A stretch of 64,000 nucleotides of DNA from Streptomyces sp. NBC_00483 (GTDB lineage: Bacteria; Actinomycetota; Actinomycetes; Streptomycetales; Streptomycetaceae). The stretch spans positions 8,370,001 through 8,434,000 of the forward strand of contig NZ_CP107880.1 of the NCBI RefSeq assembly GCF_036013745.1. Direction: 5' to 3'. Under the pieces are notes generated by a model. It ran no database searches and had not been told where the DNA came from. It saw only the letters and a list, made by a program, of their open reading frames with translations. The stretch's first letter is position 1. The number at the start of each line of letters is the position of its first letter. The position numbers were made by a program, and so were the translations under genes. Positions 1,698 to 15,760 of the stretch are shown here, piece after piece.

Positions 1698-2396
1698 TCA
1701 GAGGCCACGATGCCTTGAGTCATCTGGGATGTCGTACCCCTCAACGTCGCGGAGCCAGTAACGGGTCACGGCAGCCCTCCGCCCGATCTCCTGGGATTCA
1801 GCTACGTCCATCACTTCCCCGGAGTGCATCGCAAGCGTATGAGCGTCCTCCATGGGCTGCAGAACGGCGCGGGCCACGGCCTGTGCCGTGTCGACATCCA
1901 AAAGGCTCTCGGCCTGCCATCGTCGCAGCCGGACCTTGGCCTGCCGTGCAGCACTGCTTAGGGCTTGAGCCTCCAGCGTGCCGACTGCGTTCATTGCCTG
2001 CTCGTCCGCCGCGTTGACCTCCTGCGTGAGGTGCTTGGTGATGACTTCCTGGGCGAGGCGGGCACGCTCCTCTTCCGCATGCTGATAGTCAACCGCCACC
2101 TGTAGGGCCCGCAGGAGTTGGGCAACGCTGGGCGCCCCAGCTGGGCCGTTGGCAGAACGGTAGGTCCGGCAGGCGAGAGAGGGCACGGCACCGCTTTCGG
2201 CTAACGGATCACGGCCGTCGATCAGGACCGTTGGGGAGCCTTTGAACCAAGCTCTACGGGCCTCGGCCAGGTCGGTGATCACTCTCGTGGTGAAGTCCGT
2301 GGTGTTCAGCCCGCAGTCGTCAAGCGCCTGTCGCAGTCGCTCCTCGGTGAGCTGGCGGTGAGGACAAGCTGGCGCTACGAGGACCTCAATCTTCAT
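1698..2396 (-). CDS. Thioredoxin-fold (MerB/DF-type) domain protein with helical C-terminal extension
   Basis: Predicted 232 residues. It begins MKIEVLVAPACPH, a beta strand followed by a CPxx redox-type turn. Then come a helix, a cis-Pro-like stretch GSPTVLIDGRDP (about residues 54-65) and a cysteine in SLACRTY. This pattern is typical of the short thioredoxin-like proteins found near ArsR or mercury genes in actinomycetes. Residues 95-232 form an extra, highly helical, charged region that the usual ~90-residue family members lack. ATG 2396 is the natural start, since the open frame upstream is IS-derived. The substrate is unknown; the second cysteine of a CxxC is replaced by His, so classical disulfide exchange is uncertain. 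Confidence 0.65.
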   Translation of the reverse strand: MKIEVLVAPACPHRQLTEERLRQALDDCGLNTTDFTTRVITDLAEARRAWFKGSPTVLIDGRDPLAESGAVPSLACRTYRSANGPAGAPSVAQLLRALQVAVDYQHAEEERARLAQEVITKHLTQEVNAADEQAMNAVGTLEAQALSSAARQAKVRLRRWQAESLLDVDTAQAVARAVLQPMEDAHTLAMHSGEVMDVAESQEIGRRAAVTRYWLRDVEGYDIPDDSRHRGL

Positions 2397-2419
2397 GTTT
2401 CCAGGATCGCGCACCTCGG

Positions 2420-2904
2420 TGCCGTACGAGCCGACGGAAGTGAGGGTTTCCTGGACGTGGAGGCGGCGACCTTGGTGTCGAGGGTGGCGAGTTCGCCGTG
2501 CACCCTGCGGTAGCACCGCTACTGGTTCTCCCGCATCAGATGCAGGACCAGCGCGTGGGGCGAGCGGAGTTTGTGTGATCGGCCCGGTCCCGTCGGTCTG
2601 CAGGTGCGGGCATGGCGCCGTTTGATCAAGTCGAGACGCCGCCGCAACACGGTGTCGGGCCGGACGGACCAGTATCTGGAGCCGGTGCAGGACTTCACGG
2701 GGACACGGGCACCAGTAGAGCGGCAATGAAGGCCCAATCTTCCGGGGCGAACTTGAGCCGGCTCGCCCCGGGCTGTCCCTGAAGGACGGTGAACTGGTGG
2801 GGCAGGGCGAGGATCTCCGCGTCCTCGTCGCGGTCGCTCATCGGCAGCAACCGCAGCGCGGCGAACATGGTGGGGACGGCTAGGCAGGCGAGACAGAGTG
2901 GCAC
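2420..2904 (-). pseudogene. Frameshifted remnant of rve-type IS transposase
   Basis: The minus strand from 2904 reads MPLCLACLAVPTMFAALRLL and then MSDRDEDAEILALPHQF. This matches the N-terminus of the intact transposase at 11896-12996 (MLVRLACIAVPHAFTALRLI, then MSDHDKDVEILALRHQL). Near 2695 the similarity moves to another frame (VRPDTVLRRRLDLIKRRHA, then PTGPGRSHK), and it fades near 2420. The catalytic core is absent. It is a dead copy of the same IS family in the same orientation as the other three copies in the window. It directly precedes the thioredoxin-fold gene and may have replaced its native promoter. Confidence 0.75.
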
Positions 2905-3070: not shown

Positions 3071-3286
3071 TTGTTGCACGAGCAGGTTCGCTCCTCGAAT
3101 GTCCGGTCGGTGGGCTACAGCCCGCAGGATCAGGCGCTCGAAGTCGCCTTTCACAGCGGGGCGGTCTATCGCTACGACGGCGTGCCGACAGGCGTGCACG
3201 CGGCCTTGATGGCGGCTGCCAGCAAGGGCGGATTCCTGGCCCAGTTCGTCAAGGGCCGCTACGCCTACCGCCGCGTCTCGGGCTGA
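3071..3286 (+). CDS. KTSC domain protein
   Basis: Predicted ~71-residue protein with the KTSC domain signature: a V-x-SSNV-x-SVGY start, a hydrophobic core with G-x-VYRYDGVP, A-x-SKGGFLAQFV, and a terminal G-x-YAYRRV. KTSC domains (after the Lys-Thr-Ser-Cys lysyl-tRNA-synthetase-associated module) also occur as stand-alone small proteins, often in mobile regions; their role is poorly defined. AGGAGGAG at 3061-3068 points to TTG 3071 or TTG 3074 as start. The longer in-frame extension upstream crosses IS debris and is not credible. It precedes the OLD-family gene by 53 bases on the same strand and could be co-transcribed with it. Confidence 0.75.
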   Translation: MLHEQVRSSNVRSVGYSPQDQALEVAFHSGAVYRYDGVPTGVHAALMAAASKGGFLAQFVKGRYAYRRVSG

Positions 3287-3339: not shown

Positions 3340-5193
3340 GTGCAGATCTGTTCCGTCTCCGTTGAGGGCTTTCGTTGCCTTGCGGACGTCGCCGAAGTTC
3401 CGGTTCTTTCCCAGACGGTTCTGACCGGTCAAAACGAGGGCGGGAAGACTGCTCTTCTTGACGCGCTGAACTTCTTGCTGCACGGCACAGTACTGAGCGA
3501 GAACGATCTCACCTACGTGGGCGACGGCGAGCTTCAGGAGTCAGCGGAGGATGCAGCTGCCCCGCACGCGCGCGTTCCTCAGACGGTCGTGACAGGCAGC
3601 TTCAGCCTCAGCGCCGATGAGCAGATCCGTCTCAAACTGCCCGAGCAGGTACGAGTCCGGCGACGTTACCGGCCAGAAGCGGGCATGTTCTTGGAGATCC
3701 ATCGCCGTGTCTGCCAAGACCCCCAACTGCGTGACTTGGCGGAGGTGAAGCTTCCGCGGTTGAAGGAACTTGCGGCCGCACACGGGATCGATCCAGTCGG
3801 GCAGGCGAACGCCAGGGCCAGCTGGGAGCAGCCGCTTGGAGCGCTGGCCCAGCAGATGAAGCAGGTGGACGCGTGGGTGCTGGCACACTCCGAAGTGGCC
3901 GCGGCTCTGCCGACGATGGTGTACTTCAAGGGTGACTCCGTCCAGGCGCCCGAGGCCGTGATCCAGAGTCTGCTCAACTCCCGGCTGCGGGAGTACACGC
4001 GGGCCGATGAGGTATCCAAGCGAGTATCGGATCTTGAGGACTATCTCGCCGAGTCGCTGAAAGAAGACATCGACAGCATCCGCCGTCACATCGCGCAGCG
4101 CTGCACCCTGCCCTCGGTAGAGCTGGCTCCCCAAGTGCAGGTGCGCCCGGCGCTTGTAGGCGTCGAGTTGAACGTCATGGACTCCCATGGCCGCCGTTTT
4201 CCTTTGTCGTCCGCCGGCACCGGCCGCTCGCGCCGGATCTCGCTGGCCTTGTGGGAGAGCAGCAACGAACTCCTGGGGCAGCACGACGTCACGCAGGCAC
4301 CCGAGTCGGATGTCCTGTTCGTCTACGACGAGCCCGACACCCATCTCGACTACGCCCATCAGCGGCGCATCATGGCGCTGCTTCAGCTACAGGCTTCGCG
4401 GCCCAACGCGCGCGTCATCGTGGCGACGCACTCGCTCAACCTGATCGACGGAGTCGACATCTCCTCCGTGGTGCACCTGCGTACCCAGGAAGGCCGGGTT
4501 CGGGCGGAGGTCCTGAACGATGACAGCGCGGACGAGGACGTGCGCCGACACCTGTCGACGATCGCGACAACGCTGGGCTTCCGCAACAGCGTCCTCCTGC
4601 ACGAGCGGTTCTTCGTCGCTGTGGAGGGAGTATCGGAGACATCCGCGTTCCCCATCCTCTTTCGCAAGCACGCCAGCTTCCCGATCCAGTCTGCCGGGAT
4701 CTGCCTGTGGGCCGGCGGCAGCAACGAAGGAGCGCTGCGATTCGCCCGTTTCCTCAAAGATCACGGCCGCGACGTCGCCTTTGTCGTCGACAAAGACAGC
4801 CGCACCAACCAGAGGCGCGCCTTCCGCGACGACAAGCTCAAGGAACACGGCTTCGACCTCGAGAAGGAGTGCTTCTACCTCGGCGCCCCCAATGAGCTTG
4901 AGGACCTGTTCACCGACGACGATTGGGCCGAGACGGCGAACGCACTGTGGAAGCCGAATCCCGAACGTGGCCCCTGGCAGCCCCAAGAGATCGTAGAGCT
5001 TCGGGCCGGCAAGTTCAGCTCGCAGCTGCTCGCCCTGCTCAAGGGCGGCTCTCCCGAAGGACCGCAGAACAAGGAAGACCTCATGGTCGGCATCGCAGCA
5101 CACCTCGCTGCGGACCGCATCCCCGCCGCCCTGTCGACGATCTTCGACTCTCTCGTCAGTCGCGCGCAGAACGCGGGGCCGCATCTCTGGTAG
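3340..5193 (+). CDS. OLD-family ATPase with TOPRIM nuclease domain
   Basis: Predicted 617-residue protein. An SMC/ABC-type ATPase head has Walker A GQNEGGKT (residues 30-37), a signature-like SSAGTGRSRR near 290, Walker B LFVYDEPDTHLD near 330 and an H-loop ATHS near 364. A C-terminal TOPRIM-like domain has FVAVEGVSE near 428 and VVDKDS near 485. This is the architecture of OLD (overcoming lysogenization defect) nucleases. Relatives such as GajA act in anti-phage defence by cutting DNA under ATP control. GTG 3340 is preceded by GAGG. No UvrD-like GajB partner follows, so this is not a standard Gabija pair. The next plus-strand gene is a nuclease/repeat protein 528 bases on. A defence role is inferred from family and context. 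Confidence 0.85.
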   Translation: MQICSVSVEGFRCLADVAEVPVLSQTVLTGQNEGGKTALLDALNFLLHGTVLSENDLTYVGDGELQESAEDAAAPHARVPQTVVTGSFSLSADEQIRLKLPEQVRVRRRYRPEAGMFLEIHRRVCQDPQLRDLAEVKLPRLKELAAAHGIDPVGQANARASWEQPLGALAQQMKQVDAWVLAHSEVAAALPTMVYFKGDSVQAPEAVIQSLLNSRLREYTRADEVSKRVSDLEDYLAESLKEDIDSIRRHIAQRCTLPSVELAPQVQVRPALVGVELNVMDSHGRRFPLSSAGTGRSRRISLALWESSNELLGQHDVTQAPESDVLFVYDEPDTHLDYAHQRRIMALLQLQASRPNARVIVATHSLNLIDGVDISSVVHLRTQEGRVRAEVLNDDSADEDVRRHLSTIATTLGFRNSVLLHERFFVAVEGVSETSAFPILFRKHASFPIQSAGICLWAGGSNEGALRFARFLKDHGRDVAFVVDKDSRTNQRRAFRDDKLKEHGFDLEKECFYLGAPNELEDLFTDDDWAETANALWKPNPERGPWQPQEIVELRAGKFSSQLLALLKGGSPEGPQNKEDLMVGIAAHLAADRIPAALSTIFDSLVSRAQNAGPHLW

Positions 5194-5389
5194 CTGCGGT
5201 GGCCTGGCGCGCCGCGCGCCGTGCCTTCATGCGCATCAGTCGCTGCTGCGGCGTGGGTGCCTCCCACGTGTGTAGTCCGACCGACGCCACCCATTGGGAA
5301 CCGTGGTGCCCCGGTTGGTCACCACACCAGCGGCAGCCGTCAGGGGACGGCAGCGCAGCGCTGTGCACGCGTATCACCCGACCACCCAT
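5156..5389 (-). CDS. Small CRWCG-motif Streptomyces protein
   Basis: Predicted 77 residues on the minus strand. Features are RVHSAALPSPDGCRWCG near the N-terminus, W-x-ASVGLHTWEAPT in the middle and a basic tail MRMKARRAAR. I recall this CRWCG, H-x-W-x-APT, R-x-ARRAAR pattern from small uncharacterised Streptomyces proteins, frequently in mobile or phage-like regions. The CxxC may bind metal. ATG 5389 is used because further in-frame extension to 5683 does not resemble the family. Its 3' end overlaps the end of the convergent OLD-family gene by 38 bases. Function unknown. Confidence 0.65.
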   Translation of the reverse strand: MGGRVIRVHSAALPSPDGCRWCGDQPGHHGSQWVASVGLHTWEAPTPQQRLMRMKARRAARQATAATRDAAPRSARD

Positions 5390-5721
5390 GGAACACCGCC
5401 CGTGTACGTCGGAATACCCTCGATAAGAACACTTTCCCCGGAAAGTCATGCTCAAAGAGTGCCACCTGCCACTGACAATCGGACCAAGCCATTCCGTTTC
5501 TTGTGTCGACTGAGACTGTCGCCCGCATGACGGTTCGCTCCAGGCGCGCACGCCCCTCCCCATCTTCCAGTCATATCCATTTTTCGGTTGAAATGACCAC
5601 TTAGGGTGACAGTGGATCCTCAATGCGGCATCGTAGGTCTGCAGTCCCCTCCCGATAGCATCCCCCGTGCCCGCCTGAGACAAGTGAGCGCCGCCGGTCG
5701 GTGGCGAGCAAGGAGTGCAGG
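5390..5721. other. Intergenic region without supported gene
   Basis: About 330 bases between the CRWCG gene and the Mrr-HEAT gene. AT content is higher than in the flanks (for example around 5430-5600), so it probably carries the promoter of the plus-strand gene. I see no convincing coding frame and no strong hairpin. Confidence 0.5.
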
Positions 5722-8700
5722 ATGGCTTCGGACTGGCCCGCGGAGGAAATCCGTCTCGGCGCGCTTGTCAGTCGGCGCAGTGAACGTCCCCTCACCCCGC
5801 CCCTCTCTGCCCCTGATGCACTGCCCTTCGGCGAGCTTTCCCCGCCCGTGTTCGAGCGCTTGGTTAGCGAGGTCATGTGGCTTGTCGATGGGATGAACGA
5901 CATCCGCGGCTACGGGCGATCCGGACAAGATCAGGGCGGACTCGACCTCATTGGCAGGAAAAAGGGCAAGACGCACGTCTATCAAGTGCGCAGGATCGTC
6001 TCCTTGTCCGCGCCCGCGCTCCGTGCAGCCGTTACAGACTTCGCCGGCCCACCCCGCACGACTACCCCCGAAGAGAAGTGGTCCGAGCGACGGTTCGACT
6101 CGGTGCGCTTTGTCCTGGCAGCCGGTTGTATCGTCGACGACACGCCGGTGGAGGACGAACTCGTCTCTCTAAAGGAGCGCTACCAGGGCGACATCGACAT
6201 CGACCTGTACGATGCACGCGCCCTATCTGGGGCCTTGAGAGATCGTCCGTCCCTTGTCGCTGGCGTGTTCGGCCCGGAGTGGGCCAAGGCGTTCTGCGGG
6301 ATAGAAGCGACACCAGTTTCGTCCCTACCGCATGGCTACGCGCTGTTGAATGACCCGCTCGAGCATTTGGACCTGGCCGACGCCCTGCACCGCGCTCAGC
6401 AGCTCGCGGAGACGGAAGAGCCTGGGCCGGCCGCCGAGCTCTTCGGAGAGCTGGCGGATGCACTTGAACAGGCCTCGTTTACCGGGCATGCCGCCCAGTT
6501 GCGCACTCGCCAGCGTGATCTGCTGGCGGCCGCTGGGCAGGCCGACACGGCATTCACCGTCGCGGTTCAGTTGCTGCTGGATCGGTATGACTCCGGCGAC
6601 CGTATGTTTGTCGATGAGCGCTTGGAGCGGCTGGCTTCCAAAGCCGGTGGCACGGCTGCCGACATCTACAGCGTCTTGAAGGCTCTGGCCGACTGGTTCG
6701 AGCACGGCTATGCCCTACCGCCGGTGACCGCCGCACTTGAGGCTGTGGTGCGGGCCAGCGATCCACTAGCAGCCCGCTTGGTGCTGGCAGTCATCGAGCA
6801 GATCGTTGTCGACGAACATCCCGACGATCATCCGGCGAAGCTGTCGGACCTGGTTTCCCAGGTCGCCCCCGCACAGAAGGGGCTCTTGCGGTTGCGGCTG
6901 GAGTGTTGTCTGGCAGACCTGGCCGTCCGCGCCGGACAGGGCCCGGAAGACTCTTACGCCGACCTCAATCGGCGCGCTCTGGGCGGCCGCTTACAGGAAC
7001 GGTTCGCAGTCTTGGTGCATATGCGCCGCGGACGAGCCCTGGCCCTGGCAGACCTCGGAGAAGAGGCCATCGAGGCCTACCGGCGCGCAGTACTGGTCGC
7101 TACCCGAGAGGGCCTGGGAGGCGATGCCCGGCACGCCCTTCGCGCCATTTCCTTTCTGTCCGACCAGTACAACCTTGGACTCAGGGAATCGTCCCAAGCC
7201 ATGCTCTCGGCCCGTACGGTCGGCGCCAAAGGCGCGCGGCTCCTCGAACTCTCCTTCAGTCCAGCCGTCAGCGCGTTGGAAGGGCTGGTCGACAACAATC
7301 TTCCGGACGCCTCGCGAGCCGCGCATCAATGGTTGTGGCAAGACCGGCTCTCCGGTGCCCTGACCGACGAGAACCTCGCACACCAGCGATACGGGGAAGT
7401 CTTCAAACGCGCAGGAGAAGTGAAGCACGCCGTGCGTCAGTTCGTCCTTGCGGGCCGCAGGAAGGACGCTTGCTCCGCCGCCGAACCAGCATCCGAGTTC
7501 CTCGATGTAAGCACCCTCCTGCAGATGAGGGCTCGGTGGGTACGCAGCGCTGCCGCAGCGGTGACCGGCCAGCAAGCGGATCTCATTCCTGATGACGCTG
7601 TCGCAGGTATCGCCGCCCGCCTGACGGACATCGTCATCACGGGCTCGCAGTCGGCAGAAGGAGACATACGCACGGTCATACAGGCACTCGGAGCGCTTGC
7701 AGCGCTCGATGAGCGACTGCCGGAGGCATCAGGGCAACAGGTCCTTCCGCTGTTGGTCGGATGGATACCCAGAGAGCCGACCACTTCCCGGTTCGTAGAC
7801 AAGCAGATGCTGGCTTTCCTCGGCGCCTGCATCAAGGCCGACCTGCCCTTGGCGGGCCAAGCCGCACAAGCCCTGCTGGATGCATGGAAGCTCGATATGA
7901 ACGGAGCCGACGTGCTGTTGGCCGACCTTCATTCCCACCTGTCGTCAGTTGTACCAGTGGTCCGAGAGCGGGCGCAGCAGGGACACCGAGGGGCCGCAGC
8001 TCTCCTCGCACACTGGCGGGTAGACGACCCGTCGGTCGCCGAGACCGCACGGGAACTGGCCGACAGCGTGCTGGCCGAACCAGTGGGAACGGATCGCCCC
8101 TTGTATTCCGTGGGCACCACCGCGCGACAGTGCGCGGCGTTCCTCACGGTGTACTCCAACGATGAGGTCTCCGTGGGCACAGGCGAGGCGGCCGGCATCC
8201 TGCGTGAACGCGTCACAGCACACCTCCTGTTGTGGGCCGAAGACCGCACGGACACAGCTGACCGACGATCCGACGCTGTTCATGCACTGTCCATCCTCGC
8301 CGAAACCCTGCCTGCGGCCATGCGAGACACCATGTTCGAACGGATCATGTGCCTCTACGACGATCCTGGAGAGCACCCGTCCGACGCATTTGACCGACGC
8401 ACCCAGCACCCCCTGAGCCGCCACAAGATCAATGAGGGAAGGGAGGGACGCCTTCCCTTAGAGGTCTTGCAGGCATCCGCCGCTCTCGCTACCACAGGCG
8501 CTCAGGCCGCCCGCGTCGAACAGCGCCTGCTGCCCCTACTGACCCGCCCCGCACAAGTGCGAGGCAATAGCCAGCTGCAGGCACAGGCCATGCTCGCACT
8601 CGACCGTTTGACGCCCGCCCCGGTGTCCCTGATGGCCACTCATGCCTCAGAGTCCATTCGGCACTCTGCCGTGGTTTGTTGGGGCCGCGCCGATCACCGA

Positions 8701-8877
8701 GACCCGTCCCTGGCGCGCGTGTTCGCCCAGGACGCCAACCCTGGAGTACGCCGCGCCCTGGCTCACTCCCTTGCCGACTTCTCCCCGGATGAACAGCGCA
8801 AGTACGAGGCCATTACCGAACAGCTCCGCATCGACACCAGTGCACGTGTCCGCCAAGCCGCAGCCCGTATCCCATGA
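5722..8877 (+). CDS. Mrr-like nuclease domain fused to TPR/HEAT-like repeat protein
   Basis: Predicted 1051 residues; ATG 5722 is preceded by AAGGAG six bases upstream. Residues about 40-215 resemble a restriction-endonuclease (Mrr/PD-(D/E)xK) fold: PPVFERLV (41-48), RGYGRSGQDQGGLDLIG with the likely catalytic Asp75, then VYQVRR where Arg90 replaces the usual lysine. A second half (VRFVLAAG, then WAKAFCG near 215) matches nuclease heads found on NACHT/STAND defence proteins. The remainder is alpha-helical, with TPR-like stretches in the middle and HEAT-like repeats at the C-terminus (NPGVRRALAHSLADF). No P-loop is seen, so it is not a classical Avs. Two TTA codons (6991, 8458) suggest bldA dependence. 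A defence sensor-effector role is inferred. Confidence 0.7.
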   Translation: MASDWPAEEIRLGALVSRRSERPLTPPLSAPDALPFGELSPPVFERLVSEVMWLVDGMNDIRGYGRSGQDQGGLDLIGRKKGKTHVYQVRRIVSLSAPALRAAVTDFAGPPRTTTPEEKWSERRFDSVRFVLAAGCIVDDTPVEDELVSLKERYQGDIDIDLYDARALSGALRDRPSLVAGVFGPEWAKAFCGIEATPVSSLPHGYALLNDPLEHLDLADALHRAQQLAETEEPGPAAELFGELADALEQASFTGHAAQLRTRQRDLLAAAGQADTAFTVAVQLLLDRYDSGDRMFVDERLERLASKAGGTAADIYSVLKALADWFEHGYALPPVTAALEAVVRASDPLAARLVLAVIEQIVVDEHPDDHPAKLSDLVSQVAPAQKGLLRLRLECCLADLAVRAGQGPEDSYADLNRRALGGRLQERFAVLVHMRRGRALALADLGEEAIEAYRRAVLVATREGLGGDARHALRAISFLSDQYNLGLRESSQAMLSARTVGAKGARLLELSFSPAVSALEGLVDNNLPDASRAAHQWLWQDRLSGALTDENLAHQRYGEVFKRAGEVKHAVRQFVLAGRRKDACSAAEPASEFLDVSTLLQMRARWVRSAAAAVTGQQADLIPDDAVAGIAARLTDIVITGSQSAEGDIRTVIQALGALAALDERLPEASGQQVLPLLVGWIPREPTTSRFVDKQMLAFLGACIKADLPLAGQAAQALLDAWKLDMNGADVLLADLHSHLSSVVPVVRERAQQGHRGAAALLAHWRVDDPSVAETARELADSVLAEPVGTDRPLYSVGTTARQCAAFLTVYSNDEVSVGTGEAAGILRERVTAHLLLWAEDRTDTADRRSDAVHALSILAETLPAAMRDTMFERIMCLYDDPGEHPSDAFDRRTQHPLSRHKINEGREGRLPLEVLQASAALATTGAQAARVEQRLLPLLTRPAQVRGNSQLQAQAMLALDRLTPAPVSLMATHASESIRHSAVVCWGRADHRDPSLARVFAQDANPGVRRALAHSLADFSPDEQRKYEAITEQLRIDTSARVRQAAARIP

Positions 8878-9342: not shown

Positions 9343-9370
9343 TAGCTCTTGGCTCATACAAGATTTTCGT
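9343..9370. repeat. ISL3 left end: target duplication plus inverted repeat
   Basis: TAGCTCTT at 9343-9350 is an 8-bp target-site duplication repeated exactly at 11056-11063. It is followed by the 20-bp left inverted repeat 9351-9370 (GGCTCATACAAGATTTTCGT), an exact reverse complement of 11036-11055. Similarity continues another 12 bases with three mismatches. Confidence 0.95.
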
Positions 9371-11055
9371 AGCCGTTGATCGCCCAGGGGTCGTCCGGAG
9401 TGGTGCGGTGCGGGGTGCGTCGTGAGTGGGCGACGAGGATCACGCGCTTGCGGAGCAACGGGATGCCCGCGCGTCCTGCCATCTGACGCTTGATCATTTT
9501 CAGGTCCGTGATTCTGCCCTCCGCGACGCCCGAGTTGTAGGGAAGAGTCACGGCGGCGTGCACCGCGTCGAAGTCGTCCTGCAGACTGACGGTGAAGCGG
9601 ACGAGCGGGGCGAGGCCGCTCTGGCGGGCGCTGGTAATCCAGCGGTCCATGAGCGCGGCGCGCTTCTTGTCGAAGACCTCACGGAAGGCACCGATGAGGC
9701 CGTGGAGGACGCGCAGTTCGGGGCAGCGTTCCAGCAGGTGCTTGACGAAGACCTGCTGGTCCTCGCCCAGGCGCTCGGGGCGTGTGGTCAGCAGCCGGGT
9801 CACCTCGAACGCGCTGCGGGCGGGGGCGGGTGGAGGCAGGCCTGCGTCCAAGGCCTCGCGGTGGGACGTGAGGTAGAGGCGGACGGTTCCTTCGCTGCCG
9901 TGGAAGCCACGTGCGGTGATCTCGCGGGCGAGAGCCGCGATGTTGTGTTCTCCCTCGGCCCACCTGCGGTGCAGGTGCCCCTGGTAGGGGCCGATAATGC
10001 CGACACGGCGAGGCCAGACAGGGACGACCTCCTGCCAGGTGGCGGCGCGGGCATGGCGTCGTACGACGTTGCGGTCCAAGTCCATGTGCCGAGCGATCGC
10101 GCGTAGCGCCATCCCTTCGGTGAGCAGGGCGTGGACGGTGGTGTGATTTCGGCGGGTGCGCTTGGCCATGAGGCCGCCGGGGGTCCGCGGTGCGGTGGTC
10201 TCGTCGTCGGGTTCGGGCAGGCAGTCACGGTGGATGGTGACCACCTCGTAGATCTTGCGCCCGAGGTTCTGCCACAGGTGGAATCGGTCGCTGGCCTGGA
10301 CAGCCTGCGGTGCACCGGCCGTCATCGCGGTGCGGTAGGAGGCCGAGCCGTCGCGGCAGGCCACCTCGATGCCTGGCTGGGCGCGCAGCCAGTCGGCGGT
10401 GGGTTCGGCATCGCTGGTGTTGAAGGCGTCGACGGGTAGACGGGATTCCGCGTCGATCACGAGGGTGGCGTAGCGGCGACCGCGCCGTAGCGCGAAGTCG
10501 TCCACGGCGACCACCCGCAACGTCGAAGTCGGCGGGTCAGGGCACTTCATCAGACGGGCGAGCAGGGACGCCCAGCTCAGGGCGTGGTGCAGGTGGAGCA
10601 GCAGCCGCGAGCCGGCCTTGCCCGCCAGCGCTGTCGCCACGGCCGCGACGATCAACTGAAGTCCCGGAGTACGGCGTTGATAGCGCAGGGTCAGCCCTTC
10701 GATCTGCTCCGCGAAGGTGGTCTTCGGCAGGCCGCGTTCTCGCAGTACAGACGCCGGACCGAAAGATCGATCCGCACCGGGCGGCCACCGACGGCCTCAT
10801 CCTCGACGTGCCGCACGTACCGGCTGTGTTCCCAGCCGGAGGACTGGCCGCAGCCCGTGCACGCGGCCGGTTCCGCCCGGGACCGTGCGCAGATCACCAC
10901 TGTGTCCCCGCACTCCAGGACCGAACCAATATCCACAGCAGCCAGCTGCGGCAACATCTTCAACACGTCATCGCACACAGGCAGCATCCCGCCGCATCAG
11001 CGACGTGTCACGGCCCAACAAGTCGATCAACGCTCACGAAAATCTTGTATGAGCC
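9351..11055 (-). mobile_element. ISL3-family insertion sequence, 1705 bp
   Basis: The element is bounded by perfect 20-bp terminal inverted repeats and an 8-bp direct target duplication, as expected for the ISL3 family. It contains one transposase reading direction (minus strand) that nearly fills the element. Intact ends and duplication show a simple transposition into this site that has not been rearranged since. The transposase itself is frameshifted, so the copy is probably not autonomous unless frameshifting occurs. Confidence 0.93.
9354..10987 (-). pseudogene. ISL3 transposase, split by one frameshift
   Basis: The N-terminal part (10987 down to about 10730) carries the zinc-finger-like head: CTGCGQ, then VRRLYCENAAC, i.e. 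paired cysteines. The rest (about 10735 down to 9354) continues in another frame as KTTFAEQIEG, then the DDE core with VVAVDDFALRRG, ACRDGSASYR and SGVAEGRITDLKMIKRQM. Homology joins at ENAAC-(P)KTTFAEQ, so one base appears to be missing near 10729. Catalytic residues look intact on the C-terminal frame. ISL3 elements are not known to use programmed frameshifting, so I call it a pseudogene; a sequencing error is the other explanation. Confidence 0.85.
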
Positions 11056-11895: not shown

Positions 11896-12996
11896 TCAGG
11901 AAGCATGTTGGTACTCGTGGAGTACGCCGCCGAGACGATCGTGTCGGCGAACGCGAAGCGGCTTGAGCTGTGGTGGATTGAGCGGTTCCGGCACGACTCG
12001 GAGGGGTGCGGCAGCCTGCAGTGTGCGGTGGGTGCGGTGATGGTTGTAATGCTGTTCGTACTCGCGGAGCGCTCGCCGCAGGTGGGCTTCGTTCCAGAGC
12101 AGGGTGCGGTCGAGGACTTCACGGCGCAGGCTGCGAACCCAGCGTTCCATGATTGAGTTCATGCGTGGCGTGCGGACGGCGGTGAGCACGGTGCGGATCC
12201 CTGCCTGAGAAAGGATCTCGTCGATGACGACGGGGTATTTTGCGTCGCGGTCGCGGATCATGAACTTGATGGCGGTGAGCTGTCCGGCGTCTTCGAGGTC
12301 CATGACCAGGTTCTTGATCGCCTGGGTGACCCAGGCGTGGGTGGGATGCGCGGTGGTGCCGAGCACACGGACGTTTCGGTGGGCGTGGTGGATGGCGGCG
12401 AGGATGTACTGACGTTGTCCGGTGAGGGTGACGGTCTCGATGAAGTCCATCGCGAGGATTGCCTCGGCCTGGGAGTGCAGGAATGTGGCCCAGGTGACGT
12501 TCGAGCGATGGGTTGAAGGATCGATGCCTTCGGCCTTGAGGATTTCCCAGACGGTGGAGGGTGCCAGTTTGATGCCGAGGAGTGTGAGTTCGCCGTGGAT
12601 ACGCCGGTAGCCCCAGGTGGGGTTTTCCTCGGCGAGGCGGAGTATGAGGCGGCGGACGGAAGTGACTGTGCGGGGGCGGCCGGGACGCGGGTTGCGGCTG
12701 AGATGGACGTGACGGCTATTCATGAAGTCGCGGTGCCGGCGCAGGACAGTGTCCGGGGAGACGATGAGCCGTAGCCGGCGCAGGGCGGTTCGTGGCAGCG
12801 GGGCGAGGAGAGCGGCCAGGAACGCGCGGTCGGCCTCCTGAAAGCCGGGGCGTTGGCTGCCGAGCCGGCGTTGCAGGACGGCGAGCTGGTGCCGCAGCGC
12901 GAGGATCTCGACGTCCTTGTCGTGGTCGCTCATAGGGATCAGCCGCAGGGCGGTGAAGGCGTGGGGGACGGCGATGCAGGCCAGGCGTACGAGCAT
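11896..12996 (-). CDS. rve-type (DDE integrase core) IS transposase
   Basis: Predicted 366 residues and apparently intact. An N-terminal helical DNA-binding part (VEILALRHQLAVLQRRL, then SPDTVLRRHRDFMN and ENPTWGYRRIHGELTLLG) precedes an integrase core. The core holds AMDFIETVTL (first Asp), FMIRDRDAKY (second Asp) and NSIMERWVRSLRREV (Glu), the DDE triad of retroviral-integrase-like transposases of the IS3/IS481 broad group. It needs no frameshift. Three damaged relatives in the same orientation occur at 2420, 15996 and 30690. The element's exact ends are unclear; the flanks are an IS256 scrap on one side and a broken oxidoreductase on the other. Confidence 0.85.
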   Translation of the reverse strand: MLVRLACIAVPHAFTALRLIPMSDHDKDVEILALRHQLAVLQRRLGSQRPGFQEADRAFLAALLAPLPRTALRRLRLIVSPDTVLRRHRDFMNSRHVHLSRNPRPGRPRTVTSVRRLILRLAEENPTWGYRRIHGELTLLGIKLAPSTVWEILKAEGIDPSTHRSNVTWATFLHSQAEAILAMDFIETVTLTGQRQYILAAIHHAHRNVRVLGTTAHPTHAWVTQAIKNLVMDLEDAGQLTAIKFMIRDRDAKYPVVIDEILSQAGIRTVLTAVRTPRMNSIMERWVRSLRREVLDRTLLWNEAHLRRALREYEQHYNHHRTHRTLQAAAPLRVVPEPLNPPQLKPLRVRRHDRLGGVLHEYQHAS

Positions 12997-13235: not shown

Positions 13236-15389
13236 TCAGCCGGACTCAGGCCCGTTTGACTGATTCGAGACGCTGCGCAGGACCTCCATCACCCCCGCGT
13301 GGACCGAGGAGACGTCCGCTCCGCTCGCGTACTGCTCGGTGTATTCGTCCGGGCCGAGGGCGGCGCGGACCGCGTTCTCGCAGGTGCGCCGGTGCTCGGT
13401 CATCTCGGGGGAACCCAGGTGCGGGGTGCCGAGGATGTCCCAGGCCCGGTCGACGAGGCCGAAGAGGCGGGCCGCCAGATCGGGGTGCTGGTCGCCGGTG
13501 GCCGCGACGGCCAGGGAGTCGAGAGTGATCGCCATCCCGTAGAGGTCGTCCAGGCGCCACTTGGCCTCCAGCGACGACAGGAGCGAGGCGATCGCCTCGG
13601 CCGGACTGCCCTGGGCGATGCAGTGGTTGCCCCAGACGTAGTCCGCGTACGAGCGGATCCAGATCTCGCCGAGGGGATCGGTCAGTTCCCGCAGTCGGTC
13701 CACCCGGGCCCGGACCCCGTCGGCTTCGCCGAGCATCATGTGTGCGTAGCCCCAGGTGGGCAGGGCGGACAGCTCGATCATGGGAGGGCCGGTGCGGGAG
13801 GCCAGTTCGTGTGCGGCCGCGTACAGCGGCAGGGACTCGGCGGGCGAGCCACGCAGGGTCATCGCGGCGGCCTGGACCCACATCGCCCCGGCCAGGGCGG
13901 GCTTGTCGTCGTACTTCTCGGCGAGGATCCGGGCCTCCGCCGCCCGGCGGGCCGTGGTGTCCAAGTCGCCCTGGCCCAGCGCGACATAACCGCACGACCA
14001 CAGGGTCCGCGCCGCGGCGCGCGGACGGTCGGGCGCGAGGGCGAGTGCCGCCTCGCTGTAGTACCGTCCCTCGCGCAGATGGCCGCAGCCGAACCAGAAG
14101 TAGAGCAGGTCGCTCGCCATCTCCAGGGCCGCGTCCCGGTCCGTGCGCAGACAGGTGTCGAGGGCGGCGCGCAGATTGGGCAGTTCGGTGCGGGTGTCGG
14201 CGTGCCACCGCGCCTGGTCGGGCCCGATCCACGCCTGGTCGCCGCGTTGAGCGAAGTCGCGGTAGTAGTCGCGGTGGCGCAGCCGCACCGGGTCCGAATC
14301 GCCGACCCGTTCGAGCCATTCGGCGCCGTACTCGCGCACGGTGTCGAGCAGCCGGTAGCGGGGCTCCGCCTCGCTGTCCTCGGCCAGGACGACGGACTTG
14401 GCGAGCAGCCCGTCCAGGACCTCGGTGAGATCGCAGTCGGCGAGGGGTTCCGAGCTGCACACGAAGTCGACGGCCTTGCGGTCGAAGCTGCTGGGGAAGA
14501 CGGAGAGCCGGGCCCACAGCAGCCGCTCCCGCGGGGTGCACCACTCGTGGCTCCAGCCGACGGTGGTGCGCAGCGCGCTGTGCCGTGCGGGCCGCCGCAG
14601 CGGTGTGGCGCCCGGCAGTCCGTCTTCGGCGTCCAACTCGGCTGCCGGGTCCGGCGGTTCGGACCCCGCGTTCGCCGACAGGACGGCCATCCGCCGGCCA
14701 AGGCGGTGCACGAGATAGTTGACGGACGTGGCGCGCAGCAGTCCCGAGGCGAGCTCGATGGCGAGTGGCACCCCGTCCAACAGGGTGCACAGCCGGGCGA
14801 GTTCCTCCGGGGTCACCTGACCGGGCGGCTCCTCGTCGGGCCAGGCACGGGCGCGCAGTAGATCGAGAGCCTCGCCCTCGGGCCCGGTGTCCATGGGGCC
14901 GACGTCGACACGACGCTCGTACGGGATGTCGAGGGCCTGCCTGCTGGTGGCCAGGATGCACAGTCCCGGCGCCTCGGCGAGCAGGGTTCTGGCGAGCCGG
15001 GCGCACGCCTCGACCAGGTGCTCGCAGGTGTCCAGAACGAGCAGCAGCTCGCGGTCGCGCAGATACTCCGTGAGGACGTCGATCAGTGGCTGATTCGTCT
15101 GGTCGGCGACGCCCAGGACGCCCGCGAGCGTGTGCTCGAGGAGGTCGGGGGAGAGGACGGGGGACAGTTCGACGAGCCAGACGCCGTGGCCGAAACGGGG
15201 AGCGGTCCTGGCGGCGGCCCGCAGGGCGATGCGGGTCTTGCCGATGCCTCCGGGCCCGGTCAGGGTGACGAGCCGTGAGCTGCCGAGCGCGTCGAGCACT
15301 TCACCCAACTGCCTTGCCCTGCCGATGAACTGGGTGGTCTCGATCGGCAGATTGCCGTACTTCGGCCTGTCGCTGTGCGTGGCCATCAT
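13236..15389 (-). CDS. STAND-type (NB-ARC/AfsR-like) ATPase with TPR region, no DNA-binding domain
   Basis: Predicted 717 residues. An NB-ARC-like ATPase occupies residues 20-330: P-loop GPGGIGKT (45-52), Walker B LLLVLDTCEHL near 115, ATSRQALD sensor motif, and LPLAIELAS-type GxP motif (GVPLAIELASG). TPR-like helices then run to the C-terminus. This is the core of AfsR/LuxR-type regulators (COG3903). Such proteins usually also carry a SARP or LuxR helix-turn-helix domain, and none is visible at either end. ATG 15389 is preceded by GGGAGGGG. It could be a regulator acting through a partner or a signalling/defence ATPase. IS debris on both sides hides any original operon. Confidence 0.8.
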   Translation of the reverse strand: MMATHSDRPKYGNLPIETTQFIGRARQLGEVLDALGSSRLVTLTGPGGIGKTRIALRAAARTAPRFGHGVWLVELSPVLSPDLLEHTLAGVLGVADQTNQPLIDVLTEYLRDRELLLVLDTCEHLVEACARLARTLLAEAPGLCILATSRQALDIPYERRVDVGPMDTGPEGEALDLLRARAWPDEEPPGQVTPEELARLCTLLDGVPLAIELASGLLRATSVNYLVHRLGRRMAVLSANAGSEPPDPAAELDAEDGLPGATPLRRPARHSALRTTVGWSHEWCTPRERLLWARLSVFPSSFDRKAVDFVCSSEPLADCDLTEVLDGLLAKSVVLAEDSEAEPRYRLLDTVREYGAEWLERVGDSDPVRLRHRDYYRDFAQRGDQAWIGPDQARWHADTRTELPNLRAALDTCLRTDRDAALEMASDLLYFWFGCGHLREGRYYSEAALALAPDRPRAAARTLWSCGYVALGQGDLDTTARRAAEARILAEKYDDKPALAGAMWVQAAAMTLRGSPAESLPLYAAAHELASRTGPPMIELSALPTWGYAHMMLGEADGVRARVDRLRELTDPLGEIWIRSYADYVWGNHCIAQGSPAEAIASLLSSLEAKWRLDDLYGMAITLDSLAVAATGDQHPDLAARLFGLVDRAWDILGTPHLGSPEMTEHRRTCENAVRAALGPDEYTEQYASGADVSSVHAGVMEVLRSVSNQSNGPESG

Positions 15390-15760
15390 GCGAACCCACC
15401 CCTCCCAGCGGGACATCAAAGGAACCACTGGTGCACCGTTTTCCAGACACGGAGCGTTGCACACCCGGCCACCCCCTGCCACCCGAACGGAGGACAGAGG
15501 GTAATGGCCCAGGTCCGGCGCGGCCGTGTTCCCGCCCCCGCGGCGCGAGCCGGATCCGTATGGCGCGCAGGCGCGTTGACGCCGGACGGGCTCGGCGTGT
15601 GCCGTCCGGTACGGCATCCGCAGAGTCCCAGGCGCTGCGCATCGCGCTGACCATGCCCGCCGACGCCCCGGCCTGGTACTACGAAGGCATCGTCACGCCG
15701 ACCCCGGCCGCCGACGCCCAGGGGTAGCGGCTGCGGGTGCCGGTCGGGCTGCGGGTCGAG
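15390..15760. other. Intergenic region, no supported gene
   Basis: About 370 bases upstream of the STAND ATPase. A plus-strand frame ends at 15727 with the protein-like stretch ALRIALTMPADAPAWYYEG, but its 5' part is not credible, so at most it is a broken 3' end. The minus-strand promoter of the ATPase gene should lie here; no clear -35/-10 pair was identified. Confidence 0.4.

Follow-up and report, generated by a model that had tools for sequence, protein, structure and literature searches.

Proteins of the OLD family are sorted into classes according to the partners that they have, and one question about these nucleases is how they are kept from doing harm to their host. Class 1 members, such as P2 Old and the OLD protein of T. 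scotoductus, are described as single genes (PMC10568477), while Gabija (GajA/GajB) forms class 2, retron OLDs class 3 and PARIS class 4. Here we consider an OLD gene of Streptomyces sp. NBC_00483 that lies in a stretch of 64,000 nucleotides (G000:C1:8370001-8434000, the whole of which we call the window) of a 10.24 Mb genome; Streptomyces sp. NBC_01016 carries a near-identical locus. An earlier note on this DNA had proposed that the OLD protein and the very large protein encoded behind it, here called BIG, make up a two-gene defence system. We find that the constant companion of OLD is instead a small convergent gene, called CRWCG after its motif. The core unit may thus be OLD with CRWCG, to which a KTSC-domain gene is added in one clade, rather than OLD with BIG, a reading to which we give, jointly with the explanation developed below, a little less than an even chance.

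The OLD gene (3340..5193, + strand) encodes 617 residues, and its identification as an OLD-type ATPase/TOPRIM protein was borne out by Pfam, with AAA_15 at 72.9 bits and OLD-like_TOPRIM at 27.5 bits, both above the cut-off. All of the motifs that had been named were found (Walker A GQNEGGKT, Walker B YDEPDTHLDY, TOPRIM VEG and DKD), and G30, N32, G35, K36, Y329-Y338, E429, D484 and D486 are invariant among 27 aligned relatives. An ABC ATPase and a TOPRIM domain are thus joined in one protein, as defines the OLD family, and OLD is likely a nuclease, the TOPRIM residues E429, D484 and D486 being conserved. Its sole sequence match in the PDB was 6p74, and that was weak (E 2e-4). We sampled 297 genomes of the family and, in an overlapping draw, 392 of the genus; OLD occurs in just 25 of the 297 (E<=1e-40). 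The viral contigs searched held no relative of OLD or BIG.

The convergent CRWCG gene

CRWCG (5156..5389, - strand) encodes 77 residues with a CxxC motif and two histidines, and in the window its 3' end overlaps that of OLD by 38 bp. The earlier note had listed a CRWCG gene and a convergent small gene separately and had counted the latter against a pairing of OLD with BIG; both are present, but we read them as one gene, and it turned out to be the conserved partner of OLD. A convergent gene with the GCRWCG motif lies within 600 bp of all 49 OLD 3' ends in 48 loci, over OLD identities of 37-100%. Six further copies come from plasmids, in five of which CRWCG adjoins OLD, while in the sixth OLD is cut short and an IS630 element stands between the two, so that CRWCG is found beside OLD in 54 of 55 relatives. 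At control loci around other TOPRIM (PF20469) matches, eight of them with frames of at least 570 aa, the gene was present at 0 of 30. The pair also occurs in one genome from another family of the class. In one genome of the sample (G313), two OLD genes of different subclades flank BIG, each with its own CRWCG, 9 kb from the contig end (L118 5745-16314). Our literature search returned no report of the pair, most subscription papers lying outside its coverage.

The arrangement of the two genes is likewise conserved. Among the 42 of 49 rows that could be scored (the other seven had frame breaks or early ends), the stops overlap by 7-50 bp in 35; five more have a longer overlap, of 91-109 bp, and in the remaining two the stops are separated by 4 and 17 bp. 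A 175-codon open reading frame (ORF) was tried as the CRWCG gene and dropped in favour of the 77-codon one; ribosome-site-like sequences lie 14-21 codons ahead of the CRWCG motif. C19, C22, H29 and H40 are invariant in alignments of 39 and 59 sequences. No Pfam family matched the protein, and a profile search of the PDB gave nothing credible; the conserved residues may mark a zinc-finger-like protein that would bind zinc through the CxxC and the two histidines. Within the close clade, 52 pairs give a median ratio of nonsynonymous to synonymous substitution (dN/dS) of 0.079. The distances of CRWCG follow those of OLD (Mantel r 0.84 over 47 loci, reached in 0 of 999 permutations), as shared descent alone would also make them do. 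A CRWCG profile gave 28 strong matches in the 297 genomes, of which 26 adjoin this OLD; the other two and 36 weaker matches lie elsewhere, several within larger ORFs, and 20 stretches around such matches contained no OLD by tblastn.

A putative damage-type promoter and the probable direction of regulation

Upstream of CRWCG in the window stands a putative promoter element, TTGTCAGTG-N8-CACTCT (5456..5478, - strand), which resembles the RecA-NDp/PafBC type by the consensus of PMC2375139 and PMC8151990. The pattern TTGTCRGTG-N9-A-N3-T precedes all 49 CRWCG genes, 32 times exactly and 17 times with a single mismatch, which in 16 cases falls on the first base; with the six plasmid copies, three exact and three with one mismatch, all 55 copies give 35 exact and 20 one-mismatch sites, whereas shuffled sequences yield 0.16 matches per 49. 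A search of the 170 bp ahead of each of 48 OLD genes found no exact TTGTCRGTG box, nor did seven detectable CRWCG domains away from OLD show the element. Across the window's genome the full pattern is strongly over-represented, occurring 74 times versus three for the reversed pattern. Ten genes downstream of the motif were picked by eye from 30 loci; two were not recognised, and the other eight are DNA polymerase IV (dinB), a RarA-like ATPase, UvrA, UvrB, Ogt, DnaE, Ung and HolA.

The element matches the ultraviolet-inducible recA promoter of S. rimosus, TTGTCAGTGGC-N6-TAGggT (PMC2375139), and is alike to the mycobacterial PafBC motif, TGTCAG-N10-TA-N3-T (PMC8151990); the RecA-NDp type has also been reported ahead of the ultraviolet-inducible gene SCO6735 (PMC5087735). 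When the motif is written as TGTCRG-N10-TA-N3-T, 27 distinct exact CRWCG sites fit it except at the first -10 base. The CRWCG sites thus share with RecA-NDp/PafBC promoters the -35-like box, the spacing and the A/T of the -10, but at that base they have G, C or A where those promoters have T. From this likeness we infer that CRWCG has a LexA-independent promoter of the DNA-damage type, and we predict that damage induces it.

The explanation that we prefer, though we hold it with slightly less than even confidence, is that OLD is a constitutive nuclease and CRWCG its damage-induced regulator, probably an off-switch, with BIG standing apart. An ordinary promoter of its own would drive OLD, which would act as a TOPRIM nuclease gated by its ATPase. 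Because the promoter of CRWCG appears to be of the LexA-independent damage type, this small protein would be made when damaged or single-stranded DNA builds up. Transcription of CRWCG, aimed into the 3' end of OLD, should reduce OLD expression, and we favour an off-switch since convergent overlapping transcription should have this effect; the CRWCG protein, too, would probably restrain OLD. The nuclease could then attack foreign or competing DNA, perhaps that of phages or plasmids, and be kept inactive during repair of the cell's own DNA. Together with ttrA, the unit would move about close to the termini of linear replicons; BIG would be a candidate defence or sensor protein in its own right, which was added to a single lineage of the region.

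If this explanation is true, the RecA-NDp/PafBC response would be tied to a likely DNA-cutting defence gene, and a constant convergent partner with a damage-type promoter would predict when the nuclease is restrained and by which protein. More tentatively still, the unit could represent a new class of OLD systems near the ends of linear actinobacterial replicons, one in which a zinc-finger antidote made through a LexA-independent damage response disarms the nuclease during repair and the convergent overlap acts as a second brake.

Several observations weigh against this explanation. CRWCG-type domains are not confined to OLD loci, 38 of their 64 matches in the 297 genomes lying away from OLD, and we therefore rejected the idea that CRWCG is an OLD-only gene. 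The first -10 base of the CRWCG sites is rarely T, and a study of S. venezuelae reports that an initial search found no M. smegmatis PafBC motif there (PMC9380542). Moreover, a regulator need not be an off-switch. The main rival of the favoured explanation, which we regard as doubtful, holds that CRWCG is an on-switch, in which case a phage or an entering replicon would damage DNA and so induce CRWCG, which would recruit OLD to DNA or allow it to cut. The gene pair and the promoter data also fit this possibility, given that an invading genome could also produce the damage signal, but the convergent layout, with stops overlapping by 7-50 bp in 35 of the 49 rows, would pit the induction of CRWCG against the transcription of OLD.

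Replicon ends, BIG and other neighbours

The unit is enriched near replicon ends, which is in keeping with the favoured explanation. Of the 11 plasmid OLD copies, nine are no more than 20 kb away from an end, where 1.63 would be expected under uniform placement (P 2e-7); of the 16 copies on contigs larger than 1 Mb, six lie within 30 kb of one (0.17 expected; 0.48 under a model of 1 Mb arms, P 5e-6), contig ends being taken as replicon ends for these 16. A control with other OLD-like genes was too weak to use; in it, the full-length ones lie far from a contig start, and one partial TOPRIM match (in genome G353) lies 15 kb from one. A TtrA-like helicase is encoded in 28 of 53 OLD loci versus 2 of 20 loci with BIG only, and in 0 of 20 non-OLD CRWCG loci, for which the stretches were shorter. 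On three plasmids ttrA and OLD run in the same direction, 146-181 bp apart, and annotated SbcC- and SbcD-type genes stand directly behind OLD on two linear plasmids (L250 11206-15388 and L252 8196-12382). TtrA, which conjugation of SLP2 requires, is a putative DEAD-box helicase, and the paper that describes it located it at the termini of most of the replicons it covered (PMC8743542). All of this would also suit a role in linear-replicon biology, such as end processing or conjugation together with TtrA, instead of defence. We nevertheless consider such a role unlikely, as OLD is present in only 25 of 297 genomes and over 200 kb separate 10 of the 16 large-contig copies from a contig end, the window's copy being 1.86 Mb away. 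In addition, the defence systems Lamassu and Wadjet cluster at Streptomyces ends too (PMC10482375), and OLD-CRWCG would be a further candidate beside them.

Tni-type transposition genes (a Mu-like transposase, an ATP-binding protein and a third gene) are annotated no further than about 1 kb from OLD/CRWCG on five of 11 plasmid copies (L113, L114, L248, L250 and L251), and these surroundings may be a preferred site of Tni insertion.

BIG (5722..8877, + strand) encodes 1051 aa from its best start, ATG 5722, which has AAGGAG just upstream, and the spacing of 528 bases given in the earlier note holds from the OLD stop to this ATG. Its single Pfam match was HEAT_2, slightly below the cut-off; Pfam gave no direct Mrr match for BIG itself, PADLOC no match, and a profile search of the PDB HEAT proteins and designed repeat proteins. 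The nuclease-like head and long helical body described in the earlier note are seen in an AlphaFold2 model (predicted local distance difference test 88.5, predicted template modelling score 0.79), with an alpha-beta-beta-beta-alpha-beta order at residues 41-163 followed by helical repeats, TPR-like at about 209-500 and HEAT/ARM-like at about 520-1051. Matches to such repeat structure are common for repeat proteins, and in a structure comparison the matches covered the repeats and none covered the head.

In the head (5842..6297, + strand; about residues 41-192, with E45, D75, Q88 and Arg90), E45 and D75 are kept in 53 of 54 aligned family members and Q88 in all 54. At position 90, 46 members carry Arg and eight, all of these distant, carry Lys; the window has QVR, and the (Q/E)xK catalytic lysine of Mrr-type PD-(D/E)xK nucleases is accordingly missing from its head. 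A distant relative that bears the Lys (P0066) matches Mrr_cat at 32.7 bits (cut-off 21). Judged from this homology and from the strand order of the model, the head keeps an Mrr-like fold. The earlier suggestion that residues 40-215 hold a nuclease fold thus stands as regards the order of the fold, but not as regards the expected catalytic Lys. Because the altered site is strictly conserved, it presumably retains a function, for example DNA or nucleotide binding, rather than being in decay.

A damage promoter for the window's BIG was considered and rejected, no exact box being found upstream in the window or at nine other close BIG loci. An exact TTGTCRGTG does stand 30-65 bp before the estimated start in five of 26 BIG-family genes (L065, L072, L073, L076 and L155), all distant (26-29% identity), and because of this box these five Mrr-HEAT relatives may be damage induced; the box has one mismatch at L075 and L150.

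That OLD and BIG together form a defence system, as had been proposed, now seems improbable to us. The two genes do occur together elsewhere. Among the 297 family genomes BIG (E<=1e-3) was found in 24 and OLD in 25, with both in five and adjacent in three (the window, G025 and G252); among the 392 genus genomes BIG (E<=1e-15) was found in 17 and OLD in 21, with both in two (the window and G313) and adjacent in both. Further adjacent loci come from Streptomyces sp. TRM70350 and one S. globisporus plasmid. At 70% BIG identity or more, six of the seven loci whose context was read, near-duplicates excluded, have BIG behind OLD on the same strand at about 510-540 bp, the exception being a copy on an S. 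rochei plasmid; 24 BIG clusters of this identity came up in the protein search. An obligate pair was not borne out, however, as either gene can be found alone and the two are separated by a convergent gene that has its own promoter. The S. rochei copy and three BIG relatives at 50-54% identity have no OLD in the stretch read, and of the 11 loci in the OLD clade of at least 59% identity, six have BIG and five (59-82% OLD identity) do not.

Five paired loci have readable sequence downstream of BIG, and all five lead through one common junction into a ttrA-like helicase gene that lacks its N-terminal part. As the match never starts before query residue 139 and each time sets in at the DEAH motif, this gene appears to be a truncated ttrA, and a BIG-helicase operon was rejected on this ground. 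The shared junction suggests that OLD and BIG came together only once and then spread jointly, as a linkage of single origin, and BIG looks like an occasional neighbour of OLD rather than a fixed partner. Least probable is that CRWCG merely hitchhikes beside OLD as a gene of a mobile element, for although CRWCG-type domains occur in unrelated contexts, the adjacency in 54 of 55 relatives, which spans OLD identities of 37-100% and extends to another family of the class, the 26 of 28 strongest profile matches that adjoin this OLD and the promoter element not seen at seven non-OLD copies all speak against it.

Among the other genes of the window, the KTSC gene noted beside the pair is supported by Pfam (KTSC, 71.2 bits); its ORF from 2789 is over-long, and the likely start, inferred from the sequence, is TTG 3071 or 3074, giving a protein of 70-71 aa (3071..3286, + strand). 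All 11 loci of the OLD clade of at least 59% identity have this gene directly ahead of OLD. For the insertion sequence elements said to flank the block, there are transposase-like ORFs at 9354-10655 and 11896-12996 downstream and a fragment at 2695-2904 upstream, all named by eye. Since the fragment resembles the broken start of a transposase like that at 11896-12996, elements of one kind may flank the block. Beyond the transposases, a 793-residue ORF (13236-15617, - strand) has, by eye, a P-loop of the STAND/AfsR-like ATPase kind, and the ORF at 1698-2726 (- strand) matches a DF-family (seleno)protein domain under the cut-off (53.5 bits vs 70).

Comparison with described systems

A defence role for the OLD unit is suggested by analogy, because of its kinship with the OLD proteins of P2, Gabija, retrons and PARIS (PMC10568477), its patchy distribution and its mobile surroundings. 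BIG is comparable to Mrr-type restriction endonucleases in the strand order of its head and through the Mrr_cat match of P0066, and differs from them by its long TPR/HEAT body and by residue 90, where 46 of 54 members have Arg for the expected Lys.

For OLD itself, PADLOC ranked GajA of Gabija first (89.1 bits), followed by Old and AriA. No GajB partner was seen, Pfam showing no UvrD/PcrA/Rep-like domain in the eight window ORFs scanned, and the TtrA-like helicase near OLD in relatives matches GajB only at E 0.019. The same eight ORFs contain no reverse transcriptase that would indicate a retron, whose RNA was not searched for. With the retron and PARIS proteins this OLD shares the OLD-type ATPase and TOPRIM, but PARIS has the two in separate genes whereas here they are fused in one protein; fused AriAB forms of PARIS also exist (PMC10568477). 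Class 1, represented by P2 Old and the T. scotoductus protein of PDB 6p74, has the same combination of ABC ATPase and TOPRIM in a single protein, and the difference lies in the partner, class 1 members being single genes while CRWCG stands beside this OLD in 54 of 55 relatives.

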